DNA of 64,000 nt from Monosporascus cannonballus (taxonomy: Eukaryota > Ascomycota > Sordariomycetes > Xylariales): contig QJNS01000090.1 of assembly GCA_004154925.1 (NCBI GenBank), positions 214,167 through 278,166 of the forward strand. Direction: 5' to 3'. Position 1 is the stretch's first letter; each line of letters opens with the position of its first letter. Made by a program: the position numbers and the translations under genes. The notes under the pieces are model-generated. The model was not told the DNA's origin. It saw only the letters and a program-made list of their open reading frames with translations, and ran no database searches. Positions 1 through 24,835 of the stretch are shown one piece after another.

Positions 1-462
1 TACAAGAATGGCAAGCTCGTGCTGAAGTCGCGAGCAACGGCTGATGACCGCGCGCACGAGGAGACCGAGAGCACGTTCAGCGACCCGACTGAACTCTTCC
101 ACCGCGATATTGGGACCCAGACCTCCCCGCCGCTAAGTCCAGGCTTGTCGGTGGCGAGCTCATCCGCCGGGAACCTAGTCGACAAGCAAGCGAGCCGTTT
201 GTCGGCGTTGCGCGCTTCTCTACACGAACTGAACGATATGTATACGCGCCGCACTGAAGCCTCGGCGGACCTAAACGCGACGCTGCGCTCGCTCCGCGAC
301 GACATCGATAACTTGGCGCTGCCGCCCCCGACGGAATACGCGATGATGCATAATAGCGCGCAGAGGCAGAACGACGAGTTCAAGCGGACGAAAGACGCGA
401 TCCGTAGTGTCAAGGGCATGTTCCTGAGCACGAGGAGCTTTCCAACGGTGATGACGAGATAG
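1..462 (+). CDS. 3' end of a coiled-coil protein gene, cut by the window edge
   Basis: An open frame enters from the left edge in frame with base 1 and stops at the TAG at 460-462, so this is the C-terminal ~153 residues of a longer protein. The visible part has an acidic, Ser/Pro-rich stretch (motif IGTQTSPPLSPG) followed by a ~70-residue heptad-like helix (SRLSALRASLHELNDMY onward) and a closing RSVKGMFLSTRSFP segment. A conserved helix followed by an 'IRxVKGxxLSxRxFP' tail is vaguely reminiscent of C-termini of fungal peroxin-like membrane-anchor proteins, but I cannot confirm the family. Codon use is typical of the gene-rich half. The next 400 bases contain only an unconvincing ORF (479-868). 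Confidence 0.6.
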   Translation, partial: YKNGKLVLKSRATADDRAHEETESTFSDPTELFHRDIGTQTSPPLSPGLSVASSSAGNLVDKQASRLSALRASLHELNDMYTRRTEASADLNATLRSLRDDIDNLALPPPTEYAMMHNSAQRQNDEFKRTKDAIRSVKGMFLSTRSFPTVMTR

Positions 463-19098: not shown

Positions 19099-21435
19099 TT
19101 AGACAATGGCAAGAACACCCGGCTCCTTACCCTCATCTACCATCTTCTGCGTAATTCTCGTTATGTCGAGGTCATGAAGGTAGCACTCGCCAACGAGGAG
19201 GAAGCGCGAGGCATGATCATCCTTCTCGTCGAGCGGGCGAACCACGAAGGGCGTTTTCCCACCAGCCAGCGATACCACGTAGTCGCCGGGGCGGGCTCCT
19301 CTGGGGCAAAATCCCATTCCCGCCCGGTCGGCCTCGAAGAAGCATCGCCCCTCGGCGTATTCGCACATCTCGGTAAACTGCTTCGGGTTCCCGTGTTTGA
19401 CGAGCGGCTTTAAACACTGGGCCCAGGGGCCGGGTATCCATTTCATATCCGGATCGACGCCCTTTCCCCAGTGCGCCGCGAAGTCCGCGAAGATCTTCAG
19501 GTCTGCTCGCATGTCGTCCGTAAGCTGGTCTTGGTGCTCCGGCTCCAAGCTCATAGGTACGTTGGGTGCGAAATAATTCCTACTGAGTCGCCGGCAGACG
19601 AGCGTCTCGATGAAAGCTTGGATGAGATATTTCCCGCTGGGGTAGGGAGTGATGTTGAGCTCCCCGTCGATATGGAAGGAGACCTGTTCGGTGGTGTTCT
19701 CCCCGACCCCTTTAATAGCCCCGATCAACGCACCCCAGGCCACCGAGACACCAGACTGGACAGAGACGGGAGGTTCCCGACTGTAGTCGAACTGTCTCAT
19801 ATCGTCGTCGGAGAAAGACCATCTCTTGAATGGCCATTGCACGGATTTGATGCGGTCCAGGACCAATCCGGGAAGTCTCAGTACTGCGGGATCCGACGGG
19901 CGGTCCAGTAGGTCAACATTAAGAGGAAGACTGCAGCGGGACAAATTATTCGCTCCTCGAAATAGCGCTGTCTGCGCGGCTTCCGGATGCTCCGCATGCC
20001 ACAGTGCCCAGCTCGGGTGCTCGGCGGGAGGCAGTTCGATGGTATTCGAGGGCTTCGATTCTGGGAGGGGTGGATCCTTCTCGGCCCTAGCGAATACGGT
20101 GGCGCTGGCGACCTGGTTATTTTTGTCGACCGTTTCGCGTTGGATGGCGAGGATGTCCAGCGACTCATGATCGATGATCCATTGCCGCGTCAGATCCCTC
20201 CACACGTCTGAGGAGCTCTTGCCGTAGTCCGGCTTCAACCTCGGCGGGAGCCCGGGCAGGTCGTGGGTCTCCTCGCCGAAGTTCAGCAGCGCGAACACCT
20301 TGTCTCTGGGATCGGTGGCGCCGAATGCCCGCCCCTTGGAGACCACATCCAACAGCGGCAGCCGCGCCGGTGCGTGGATCTCTCCACGCTTCGCCGCGTG
20401 GAGCCTCGTCCATAGGAACGGCGGCAACCTGTCGCGCAAATCGAGGCTCGCCGACCACGCGCCGGCGTACGATCGGCTTGTTTTGACGGCCCAACACAGC
20501 ATGACGAGGATGTCGAGCCAGTCCGCTCGCTTACTTCCGCAGTAGACCACCCCCTTCTTCGCATTCATCGCCTCCTGGATAACCCACACGCGCCTGAACC
20601 AAGGATACCTGAAGAACTCCTCAAAGATGAGGCTCATATGGACCCTGAATATGTGATCGTCCCCCTTATTTTCCTTGTTGCCTTTCGGGGTGATGTTGAT
20701 CTCGTCGAGCGCCTTGTCTATGTCTTCATGCTGCCACAGGGGCTTGACCTGGGCCCTCTGGAGACCCGCATCCAACATGGCCATGAGATCCCACATACCC
20801 CTGAAATGTTTGCTCTTTGACTCTTCCCCGAGGAAGATCACGACGAGGTCAGCGTGGCTGTACACGTCCACCATGAACGATATGGCATAGTTCCTCTCCT
20901 TGATGCTGCCCTGGTTGATGCACAGCGCATCAATCCAGATCACCCTTACTTTGTCTTCTAATCTCAGATATCTCAAAGCAAGATCTAAGCTTCTAGTAAC
21001 GTTGAACGACTGTTCAGTCTTCTTTGGTTGCCGGCATTCTGGATCCGGGTAACCTGTGTAGTCGTGGCACAACGTAATGCTCAGGGTGTCCTTGAGGTCG
21101 CCCCAGCAGTAAGAGAGTGCTTCAAATTCGATTTCTGGACATGGTAGGGGATGTGGTGTAAGTGTACAATGCAGTGGCTCATCGAACAATCCCGGCTTGA
21201 TGGTAACTAGCCGGATCTCCCTTTTGGAATGATCAAATGGTCGATAATTCGAGTAGTCGTTCTCTACCTTCCACTCAGGGATATCACTCGTATCCTCCTT
21301 GGCCTTGCTAGCACATGGTTCTGCAGACTGCTTCTCTTCGCCCACAGGGCCATGGTCTGCATTGCCGTCATTGACAGAGACTCCTTCTACATGAGTGCAG
21401 AGGTCCTCTTCATCGTCTCTACAAGAAGTACTCAT
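19099..21435 (-). CDS. HET-domain (heterokaryon incompatibility) protein
   Basis: An intact single-exon ORF of 778 residues. Residues 1-60 are acidic and low complexity. The HET domain (PF06985 type) covers about 72-290: REIRLVTIKPG, EFEALSYCWGD (103-113), LALRYLRLEDKVRVIWIDA (152-170) then LCINQ, and FRYPWFRRVWVIQEA (275-289). HET proteins trigger death of fused cells between incompatible individuals. The C-terminal part has the usual lipocalin-like closing segment CFFEADRAGMGFCPRGARPG ... GDYVV ... PFVVRP ... FLLVGECYLHD. Which ligand or partner it senses cannot be read from sequence. It is on the same strand as the DUF7918-type gene, about 1 kb upstream of that gene's start. No frameshift or stop, unlike the NLR-like gene 10 kb away. 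Confidence 0.93.
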   Translation of the reverse strand: MSTSCRDDEEDLCTHVEGVSVNDGNADHGPVGEEKQSAEPCASKAKEDTSDIPEWKVENDYSNYRPFDHSKREIRLVTIKPGLFDEPLHCTLTPHPLPCPEIEFEALSYCWGDLKDTLSITLCHDYTGYPDPECRQPKKTEQSFNVTRSLDLALRYLRLEDKVRVIWIDALCINQGSIKERNYAISFMVDVYSHADLVVIFLGEESKSKHFRGMWDLMAMLDAGLQRAQVKPLWQHEDIDKALDEINITPKGNKENKGDDHIFRVHMSLIFEEFFRYPWFRRVWVIQEAMNAKKGVVYCGSKRADWLDILVMLCWAVKTSRSYAGAWSASLDLRDRLPPFLWTRLHAAKRGEIHAPARLPLLDVVSKGRAFGATDPRDKVFALLNFGEETHDLPGLPPRLKPDYGKSSSDVWRDLTRQWIIDHESLDILAIQRETVDKNNQVASATVFARAEKDPPLPESKPSNTIELPPAEHPSWALWHAEHPEAAQTALFRGANNLSRCSLPLNVDLLDRPSDPAVLRLPGLVLDRIKSVQWPFKRWSFSDDDMRQFDYSREPPVSVQSGVSVAWGALIGAIKGVGENTTEQVSFHIDGELNITPYPSGKYLIQAFIETLVCRRLSRNYFAPNVPMSLEPEHQDQLTDDMRADLKIFADFAAHWGKGVDPDMKWIPGPWAQCLKPLVKHGNPKQFTEMCEYAEGRCFFEADRAGMGFCPRGARPGDYVVSLAGGKTPFVVRPLDEKDDHASRFLLVGECYLHDLDITRITQKMVDEGKEPGVLAIV

Positions 21436-22091
21436 GATGGTTGGGGGGAAACGATAGCCTTATGTAAGGTCTGAGCGTGCTACGTCTCTTGCGTAGATGC
21501 TAGCAGGGTTTCCCAGATATGTTCCAGATATCTGGTCCCTGACGTAGCTCTAAGCCTCTCATGCGGGGATAATACTTGCCCCACTATAGTCCAACTTTAT
21601 ACCTGTTTGCTATTGCTACCCAATGAGTTAGTGCTGACGGTTAGAAAGAATCATGTCACGCCAAGATTCAGGTAGTTGGCGTGAACTCGTGGAGGTGAGA
21701 TGGTAAAGTAGCAATGGAACCCGAGGTTTGTTTGAATTCCAGAAAAGCCAATGGTCGCCCGAACCTCGTTCCCCAGTCGAAGTGAACCCGTGGGGTTTCG
21801 CAGACATATCTATCTGGACATTACTTACTATCTTAGTCGCAGATTGGCATATACTATACGTGCCACAGGAGAATAATTACGGAACCTCGGCCCTAACGCT
21901 TGCCCACAGGTAACAGGAAATAGTACCAATATCCATCTTGCACAGGCCATCGCACCTCAAACTCCAACCAACGCACAGCAGACCAAACACAATATCCTCT
22001 CCCAGCTACACCCCAACTTCCAATGACCAGTTACCAAAGCCCCGAGCGCCACCTCGCACGATCCTTCTCCTCGTACGCCCACTCATTACCG
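21436..22091. other. Intergenic stretch upstream of the HET gene
   Basis: Non-coding; it should hold the HET gene promoter and the 3' region of the H3-mimic gene. No specific sites identified. Confidence 0.5.
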
Positions 22092-23183
22092 CTAGTAGTA
22101 GTAGCTGCCACCGTAGCCATCATCGTAGCCATAGCCGTCGTCGTAGCTGTAGTCATCGTCGCCATCATCCGGATACTCCGAATAAGGGGGCGGGGGTCCG
22201 TCGTAGTCGAAATCATCGCCGGGGCCGGGTGCCGGGGCCGGGATCCTATCTCTGGCCACGAAAGGACCACCGCCCCGACGGGCCGTCTGCTTGGTCCGGG
22301 GCTTGCCGGTGCCGCTGCTGGTGCCGCCGGATGTTGACGTGCCTCGGGGAGGTCCCTGCGAAATGCCACCGCCCCGGCGGGCTGTCTGCTTCTTTGCGGG
22401 CATGGCGGAGGTAGTGATGGTACGAGAAGATGATGACGAGGGAGCGCGGGATGATGCGGGTGCAGTTTTCGGCTTAGATGTGGATGCAGACGCAGATGCT
22501 CGCGGCTTCTGTTGCTTCGCGGCGCTGGCGGGCGTGGTTTTTGGTGTTGTTGTCCCTTTAGTAGTATGAGCCTTGGGTTTCGGCGTAGTCGCTTTAGCAG
22601 CCTTGGTAGCCGCAGGAGCAGAAGCGGCCGACTTGGTGGTGGTCGTCTTGGTCTTCTTGGAAGAATTGTTGCTGCTAGTCGACACCCTGATATCGACATC
22701 CCCGACGCTGACCGTGAGGTCAACGCCACTGCTCGAAGAAGAAATCTCGGCGGCCTTGCGCTTGGTGGTGGTGCTCTTCTTCGCAGTCGATACCGCCGCA
22801 GAGGAGGACGAGTCCTTGAGCGCCTTCTTCGCCTCGCGCTCGCGCTTGGCCCACTCCTTCCTCAGCTCGGCCTCGAGCTGCTGGATGTGCGCGGGCACGG
22901 CGAGCTTGCTGTTCTTCCCGTCCGCCTTGAGGGCGTCGAAGAGTCGCATGCGCGCGACGGCCTTGGTCTTCGACGGCGGCAGGCCGTAGTGAAGCAGCTG
23001 GGCCTCGAACCAGTGGGCCGGGTGGTCGCGAGAAGAGTCGGAGGAGCCGAGCTTCTCGAAGAAGAGCGCGCGCAGCTCGGCGGGCGTCGCGCGACGGTGC
23101 CGGTTGTGGCCGCTTGCCTCAACGAAGAGGTCGCCGCCCGCGAACGAGAAGCCGTCCCGCGTCACGGGCGGTGCTAGGGACAT
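22092..23183 (-). CDS. Disordered basic protein with two histone-H3-tail-like peptides
   Basis: An intact ORF; I prefer the second ATG (23183, MSLAPPVTRDGFSFAGGDLF, 363 residues) over the first (23231), because the 16-residue extension is Pro/Ser-rich and unlike a conserved start. Residues ~15-120 are folded and helical: HWFEAQLLHYGLPPSKTKAV resembles a SAP-like helix-loop-helix, followed by a charged helix KEWAKREREAKK. Residues ~125-260 are Lys/Ser/Thr/Ala-rich and disordered, with KKSTTTKRKAAE as a likely nuclear signal. Two peptides follow: KKQTARRGGG (264-273) and RTKQTARRGGG (296-306). RTKQTAR is identical to histone H3 residues 2-8. Next come PPPPY (330-334, WW-binding type) and a Tyr/Asp/Gly tail of repeated DDGYGYDDGYGG type. 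Probably nuclear and chromatin-linked (inference); the family is not recognised. Confidence 0.85.
   Translation of the reverse strand: MSLAPPVTRDGFSFAGGDLFVEASGHNRHRRATPAELRALFFEKLGSSDSSRDHPAHWFEAQLLHYGLPPSKTKAVARMRLFDALKADGKNSKLAVPAHIQQLEAELRKEWAKREREAKKALKDSSSSAAVSTAKKSTTTKRKAAEISSSSSGVDLTVSVGDVDIRVSTSSNNSSKKTKTTTTKSAASAPAATKAAKATTPKPKAHTTKGTTTPKTTPASAAKQQKPRASASASTSKPKTAPASSRAPSSSSSRTITTSAMPAKKQTARRGGGISQGPPRGTSTSGGTSSGTGKPRTKQTARRGGGPFVARDRIPAPAPGPGDDFDYDGPPPPYSEYPDDGDDDYSYDDGYGYDDGYGGSYYY
22266..22298 (-). other. H3-tail-like peptide RTKQTARRGGG
   Basis: Encodes seven residues identical to histone H3 2-8, continued by RGGG instead of KSTGG. A near copy lies at 22365-22394. The two DNA copies differ by synonymous changes in otherwise the same codons (aagcagacggcccgtcgg versus aagcagacagcccgccgg), pointing to a small internal duplication retained at protein level. 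Confidence 0.85.
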
Positions 23184-23360: not shown

Positions 23361-23405
23361 GGGGGGGGGGGGGGGGGNNNNNNNNNNCCCCCCCCCCCCC
23401 CCCCC
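23361..23405. other. Assembly gap flanked by G-run and C-run
   Basis: Seventeen G (23361-23377), ten N (23378-23387) and eighteen C (23388-23405). A G-run facing a C-run across an N block looks like two contigs whose ends both carry poly-G read artefacts, joined in opposite orientation. Linkage and true distance across it are therefore uncertain. It lies ~180 bp upstream of the H3-mimic gene start. Confidence 0.9.
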
Positions 23406-24022
23406 GTACGATTAAGTTTAATTGCAATATCCGAGACAATGGGAGCAGTCGAGCGGTCCAAGCTCCAGAGTTGCATTACCATGGGGAGTTTAATGAGCGC
23501 ATGGACTCCGGGATTTTAGTACATACGCAAACAAGGGTACCCGGGAGCAAAGGTTTGTGACTGCGGACGTGCGCCCCGTCCCCTCGGGTTAGGTAGGCAA
23601 GTTAGCCTGCGATGCTCACTGGGAAGGACATGAGAGAAATGAGAGAAACCCGAGCTGCAAATGACCGTTCGGCCAATGATTGCGTATAGATTGGGGGGGC
23701 CGATACTCATATATGGTATATACAGCGATTACATATTGGATCCTTACCGACCCTATGCCCATTCCTTTCTATACATGGTCCCCAAGCACAAAACCCAGGT
23801 AGATCCGGAGGGTTCGTCTGATCTCAGCCAACCGAATGCGCGCAACGTAAAACAGCGACCTTCGCCACCCTTTGTAACATCATGAGAGGAGCATCAGATT
23901 TCCCTTTTTATACATCGTCCCAACGCCAAACCCTGGAAGCCTCCTGCTTTTGTATACAAAGCATATGATAATCGTACAGATGATGATGTCGTGCTCTGCG
24001 TCTCGTCGTTATACCAATGCCT
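23406..24022. other. Intergenic stretch between the gap and mge1
   Basis: No supported gene. It holds the 3' region of the GrpE gene and, beyond the gap, unassigned DNA. Confidence 0.5.
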
Positions 24023-24835
24023 TTAGCTGCTCTTGACGACGCCGACCTTGGCGGCCCGCAGGATCCTGCCGTTGAGCTTGAAGCCCTTCTGCTGGACGTG
24101 GAAGACGGTGTTCTCCTCCTTGTCGGGCATGGGCGTCATGAACGTGGCCTCGTGCTCGTTGGGGTCGAACTTCTGGCCCTCGGGGTCGAACCGCTCGAGG
24201 CCGTGCTTCTGGAGCGTCTGGAGCATGTTCGACTCCGTCATCTTGACGCCCTCGTAGAAGTTTTTGAGGTCCTCGCTGGGCTCCTGTCCCTCGGCAGCCT
24301 TCAGCTTCTCCTGACCCATGATCAGGGCCCGGTCCAGGTTGTCTACGCTGTCCACCAGGTCCTTGGCGAACTTCTGGATGGCGAAGTCCCGGGCGGCCTT
24401 CATCTCCCTCTGCGTCCGGTCCTGGAGGTTGCGGAAGTCGGCGACCGAGCGGAGGAACTTGTCCTGTGCGTTGGGTCAGAAATATGTCAAGTGGTGCAAT
24501 GTTAAGGCGCAGAGTCCAACCTTCCATTCGACGGCCTCCTTCTCCTTGGCTTCCAGCTTCTTCTTGAGCTCAGCCTCGACATCGGAGGGCTTGTTAGCAG
24601 CCTCAGCGTCTGCTGAAGGCTTGGTGGCAGCCTCGCCGGACTGGGCCTCGACTTGGGACGTCTCGCCCTCGCCCTCCTTCTTTGCGGCCGTGTCCACTTG
24701 CTCGCTATACCATCTTGCTCTTGAGGCGAACGCTGGTGCGGGGGATATCGGCGTTCTTATTAACGGCCTCTGGGCAACTGCCCTCGAACTCGAGCGCAGG
24801 GCTCTGGAAGATGTGGCGATGGCTTGCCTTAACAT
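24023..24835 (-). CDS. mge1: Mitochondrial GrpE homologue (nucleotide exchange factor of mtHsp70), two exons
   Basis: Exons 24835-24521 and 24463-24023 with a 57-nt intron (GTTGGA..CAG); spliced 756 nt, 251 residues, phase 0 at the junction. GrpE/Mge1 releases ADP from mitochondrial Hsp70 during protein import and folding in the matrix. Residues 1-45 form a basic, Ser/Ala-rich presequence. A Lys/Glu/Ala-rich linker leads into a long coiled coil through the splice site (VEAELKKKLEAKEKEAVEWK then DKFLRSVADFRNLQDRTQRE). The core follows with FAKDLVDSVDNLDRAL and the C-terminal beta domain with the GrpE signature around FMTPMPDKEENTVFHVQQKG and LRAAKVGVV. Length and domain order are normal. GTTGGA is a slightly weak donor, but any other frame stops early. 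Confidence 0.96.

Follow-up and report, generated by a model that had tools for sequence, protein, structure and literature searches.

Why does a fungal protein carry, twice over, a peptide that reads like the start of histone H3? The question is raised by a gene in a stretch of 64,000 nucleotides from Monosporascus cannonballus (GenBank assembly GCA_004154925.1, contig QJNS01000090.1, positions 214,167 to 278,166 of the forward strand), here called the window. Most familiar histone mimics are viral, or are animal chromatin proteins with one methylatable site. The gene and its two peptides are located as follows, in window coordinates.

22092..23183, minus strand: whole coding sequence, 363 amino acids plus stop, a single exon with no intron required
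22365..22394, minus strand: repeat 1, KKQTARRGGG, residues 264-273
22266..22298, minus strand: repeat 2, RTKQTARRGGG, residues 296-306, in which RTKQTAR equals H3 residues 2-8

A preliminary description of the window had reported both peptides, 32 residues apart, in a disordered chain rich in Lys, Ser and Thr, and had equated RTKQTAR with H3 residues 2-8. All of this was borne out. The peptides lie at these positions, 32 residues apart from start to start and 33 when registered on Q, and RTKQTAR of repeat 2 is identical to residues 2-8 of the H3 encoded in the same genome (contig C110, numbered after the start Met). The chain is rich in Lys, Ser and Thr and also in Ala, and the repeat-bearing arm is predicted to be disordered, with block-mean predicted local distance difference test (pLDDT) values below 60 across the repeats of a modelled relative. 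The description's caveat that many H3K4 readers need a free N-terminal alanine also stands, as both copies sit inside the chain (within residues 264-306 of its 363) and such an alanine is absent from each. Of the nine codons that encode KQTARRGGG in both repeats, three differ, all of them silently, which is compatible with an old duplication. In the genome of 88.8 Mb (618 contigs), a search with the 363-amino-acid gene found one match only. The closest proteins among the matches listed are those of Monosporascus sp. mg162 and 5C6A, with 97% and 95% identity over the first 120 residues.

Relatives were collected in three homologue searches, of which the best 120 of 277, 226 and 322 matches were used, giving 226 homologues. 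Of 227 proteins, 219 with a tail of at least 120 residues entered a shuffle test and 208 with at least 340 residues a site-rate test. QTAR was found in 172 of the 219 family tails compared to a mean of 1.3 after shuffling, KQTAR in 137 compared to 0.08, and the complete RTKQTAR in 80 compared to none in 200 shuffles. Most members carry one to four copies of the peptide with the core QTARR, usually in the form RxxQTARR[S/G]G, and the plurality consensus of the 208 proteins reads PRKKQTARRGG for repeat 1 and PRTKQTARRSG for repeat 2. The residue after QTAR is R at 226 of 286 family sites, C at 25 and K at 17, while K precedes QTAR at 186 of the 286 and G follows QTARR at 150.

Taxon counts were based on hand-made lists of 143 named proteins. 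QTAR was present in all listed members from Dothideomycetes (5/5), Leotiomycetes (2/2), Calosphaeriales/Togniniales/Coniochaetales (3/3) and Monosporascus (3/3), and in most of those from Sordariales (11/12), Hypocreales (41/47), Xylariaceae and kin (32/35) and Apiosporaceae (6/7). In Hypoxylaceae, 15 of 26 proteins have QTAR and 1 of 26 has RTKQTAR; none of the three in a Diaporthales group that includes one Penicillium has QTAR. The three Monosporascus proteins all contain RTKQTARRGGG, in tails that are 82-87% identical. Ten of the 17 sites with K after QTAR belong to named Apiospora proteins, one of which matches H3 residues 2-11.

Site rates were computed from the 208 aligned proteins on a tree built from the two folded domains only. 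The N-domain has a median rate of 0.30, the C-domain one of 0.93 and the linker one of 1.53, or 1.60 when the repeats are left out. In repeat 2, with H3 numbering, Q5 (0.51), T6 (0.56), A7 (0.22), R8 (0.31) and the R at the K9 position (0.33) evolve about 3 to 7 times more slowly than the linker, a contrast that is possibly sharpened as the rate alignment is itself attracted to the motif. The slowest of these columns is the alanine, and Q and T are also kept. T3 (1.68) and K4 (1.67) of this repeat change at the linker rate, and R2 (0.86) is intermediate. In repeat 1, R2 (1.79) and T3 (1.68) are at the linker rate and K4 (0.91; K in 70% of 200 proteins) is moderately kept, followed by Q5 0.84, T6 0.48, A7 0.49, R8 0.82 and the next R 0.40. 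Hence QTARR is constrained and T3 is not, while the constraint on K4 is moderate in repeat 1 and absent from repeat 2.

These results divide the earlier claims. The preliminary description had suggested selection on the peptide, which is supported for an old, repeated and constrained QTAR-R core and, as worded, not supported for the H3K4/H3R2 half, since T3 and K4 of repeat 2 drift with the linker. The comparison it proposed, of RTKQTAR with its flanks in orthologues, gave a mixed outcome: QTAR and the following R are better kept than the flanks, T3 of both repeats and K4 of repeat 2 are not, and K4 of repeat 1 lies in between. It had also named orthologues without the peptide, or with a drifting one, as evidence against itself; with QTAR in 172 of 219 tails, neither describes the QTAR-R core.

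Within the single genome the match is less impressive. The codon pattern for RTKQTAR occurs twice in 88.8 Mb, in histone H3 and in the window gene, and three permuted patterns gave 0, 1 and 0 matches; the shorter KQTARR pattern gave seven, two of them in the window gene, against 12 for a backward control. Because such control patterns match similarly, the single-genome match is unremarkable and, considered alone, near chance. Linker composition predicts 3.5e-6 occurrences of RTKQTAR per 195-column linker, and 4e-4 occurrences of any 7-mer taken from H3 residues 1-40. Recurrence in relatives and the low site rates of the core indicate that the peptide is probably not due to chance.

Further clues come from the rest of the protein, in which two conserved elements bear on its likely location.

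22848..23183, minus strand: conserved N-terminal domain with a SAP-like predicted fold, residues 1-112, median site rate 0.30, from models and structure comparison
22746..22763, minus strand: conserved basic cluster KRKAAE, KRK columns at site rates of 0.07-0.10, which we take to resemble a nuclear localization signal (NLS)

SAP domains bind DNA. In the structure comparison, eight of the nine best rows were SAP-like, with modest scores and Foldseek E values that are not significant for this likeness. Two of the neighbours, 3'hExo and DEK, carry SAP domains. Compared to SAP-domain proteins (Ku70, 3'hExo, Hcc-1, DEK), the N-domain has its strands before the helices and lacks a Pfam SAP match at E ≤ 1. 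Since the SAP sequence profile matched neither the window protein (E ≤ 1) nor appeared among the families matched by 67 relatives (E ≤ 0.5), we term the domain SAP-like only. A Pfam search of the window protein gave nothing significant, no Pfam family matched more than three of the 67 relatives (best E 0.0043), and a profile of these relatives matched none of the solved structures at E below 0.1. Taken together, the KRK cluster and the SAP-like domain suggest a nuclear, DNA-associated protein.

How far does the likeness to H3 extend? Repeat 2 is identical to H3 over residues 2-8, and its family consensus also has S10. Unlike the H3 tail, both window repeats are internal, without a free N terminus, and repeat 2 is preceded by proline. 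Both have R for K9, the likeness ends after residue 10, and the shared residues use different codons. No support was found for descent from an H3 gene copy, as the likeness stops at about residue 10 and the codons differ. The repeated H3-like sequences elsewhere in the genome mostly match H3 from about residue 35-45 on, not the tail.

These H3-like sequences form a separate observation. The H3 query gave 87 genome matches (e.g., on contigs C90 and C118), mostly degenerate with stop codons, and several copies occur in opposite-strand pairs about 5 kb apart. Two loci, L011 (1175-8104) and L012 (1142-7786), have several kilobases in common at 73-81% identity and two different H3-fold stretches each, of which one scores as a Pfam histone; the pieces between match no Pfam family. 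PMC6710886 describes a hAT transposon that captured H3 in other fungi, with repeat-induced point mutation (RIP). The paired loci resemble that case, and their hAT identity is putative.

What, then, might the peptides do? Our preferred explanation, to which we tentatively assign a probability of about 0.4, is that a SAP-like protein, most likely nuclear and associated with chromatin, offers QTARR peptides to a partner for which the H3 tail may be a ligand too. The N-terminal domain would hold the protein on DNA or nucleosomes, and the long disordered arm would present, in most members, one to four copies of H3 Q5-R8, often with R2-T3-K4 too. A module that recognizes the H3 tail could then also be the docking site of the QTARR peptide, and the protein might act as a multivalent scaffold or as a local competitor of H3. 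That the protein is nuclear, binds DNA and engages a partner of the H3 tail is inferred, and true histone mimicry is a hypothesis.

The nature of such a partner is narrowed by position 9. H3 Q5-S10 is critical to chromodomain binding according to PMC3532415. The methyl-lysine ligand of chromodomains, QTARKS, has lysine at position 9; both window copies have R there, and lysine was found at 17 of 286 family sites. With R in most copies, the site cannot be a methyl-lysine. As this excludes an ordinary methyl-lysine reader, a competitor or scaffold for another H3-tail module is our preferred guess. The genome gave one chromo-shadow and one Pre-SET match, which indicate only that candidate H3K9 partners exist. 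Among known mimics, G9a and GLP contain automethylated H3-like motifs, methylatable sites that recruit HP1, as outlined in PMC9768651. The fungal family shares with them an H3-tail-like peptide internal to a chromatin-type protein; it differs in that the K9 equivalent is mostly R (226 of 286 sites), the peptide is repeated and any function is putative.

The main rival, which is possible with the odds against it, is an arginine/glycine-type tract (RRGG, RGR) for nucleic acid binding and arginine methylation, in which case the H3 likeness would be a convergence of basic disordered sequence with no shared partner. An additional element belongs to this argument.

22227..22265, minus strand: PFVARDRIPAPAP, the downstream portion of repeat 2, where most relatives have RGR; the second R column has a rate of 0.25 and R in 91%

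Both arginines of QTARR are slow, as is this downstream one, G follows QTARR at 150 of the 286 sites, and a protein that already carries a SAP-like domain would suit such a role. However, A, Q and T are constrained as much as the arginines or more, and such a tract would presumably need none of them. With alanine the slowest column and Q and T kept, the repeats resemble a recognition peptide more than a merely basic tract.

The preliminary description had proposed a substrate of, or decoy for, H3K4 or H3R2 enzymes, and we regard repeats that serve as substrates or decoys of an H3K4 methyltransferase complex (SET1/COMPASS) as improbable. In the window protein, PRTKQTARR of repeat 2 is the sole match to the nine-residue substrate motif of the human enzyme MLL4, taken from PMC12551112; 80 of 186 family KQTAR sites match as well, K4 of repeat 1 has a rate of 0.91, and 186 of 286 QTAR sites have K in front. 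However, the motif does not fit repeat 1 of the window protein, T3 and K4 of repeat 2 change as fast as the linker, and the best-kept residues, Q5-T6-A7, are left free by the motif, which according to the same paper failed to predict the twelve methylated lysines found there. As conservation is centred on QTARR and T3 and K4 of repeat 2 evolve like the linker, H3K4 is not the general theme. K4 is moderately kept in repeat 1, and the K4 idea stays viable for repeat 2 through its fit to the MLL4 motif, but acting as substrate or decoy through K4 would explain no more than part of the picture.

A nuclear import signal like that of H3 is more doubtful still. In favor of it, the peptide is basic, and residues 1-28 of the H3 tail serve as an import signal. 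However, the ordered residues of that tail were 12-17 and 21-26, with K14 and K23 as key lysines, and not 2-8 (both points from PMC5677370), and the better-kept KRK cluster occupies another part of the arm. Chance or drifting low-complexity sequence, favored by the fast-drifting linker and the near-chance 7-mer of one genome, is scarcely tenable and was rejected for the family, though not by the single-genome match, given the shuffle test (172 of 219 against 1.3), the slow core columns and the presence of the peptide in three fungal classes.

Three further features were noted in or near the gene.

22680..22724, minus strand: VDLTVSVGDVDIRVS, a short hydrophobic conserved stretch with several columns at rates of 0.25-0.60, presumably SUMO-interaction-like
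22173..22196, minus strand: PPPPYSEY, a PPxY-type motif with PPPPY rates of 0.70-0.94, which we assume to be a WW-domain ligand
22049..22087, minus strand: possible out-of-frame remnant of the end of the relatives' C-terminal barrel, only suggestive (best E 4.6e-4; 20 shuffles reach 5.1e-4)

The gene is adjoined by a HET-domain gene (19099-21435) and a GrpE gene (24009-24835). Directly upstream of it, positions 23361-23405 consist of 17 G, ten N and 18 C consecutively, which has the look of a gap in the assembly flanked by opposite homopolymers. One family member (P0020) is named 'GrpE, mitochondrial' without any Pfam match, probably in error; in the window a true GrpE gene is the neighbor, and the name may have slipped over from a neighboring gene. 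Two proteins filed under the chytrid Gaertneriomyces (P0024, P0032) resemble Sordariomycete proteins and are likely contamination; they are still included in the family counts. The Penicillium hispanicum member (P0194) resembles the Diaporthales members and likewise lacks QTAR, and horizontal transfer is possible. No publications on this protein family were found among the matches listed in open-licence papers, which is weak evidence of absence.

A bolder form of the preferred explanation, which we consider unlikely, is a fungal histone decoy, widely conserved and multivalent: bound to chromatin, the SAP-like protein would offer several H3 tails in which R takes the place of K9, and so hold or inhibit an H3-tail enzyme or reader without modification at position 9. 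As parts of this same unlikely proposal, K4 would be an optional methylation site and position 9 of Apiospora a methylatable lysine. Lineages differ in whether K4 is kept, in having R9 or K9 and in copy number, and these natural mutants make the idea testable. Antibodies to the first H3 residues might cross-react with the family protein. If true, histone enzymes or readers would be tuned in a new way, by a conserved cellular protein in which an H3-tail peptide, mostly blocked at position 9, is repeated across fungal classes.
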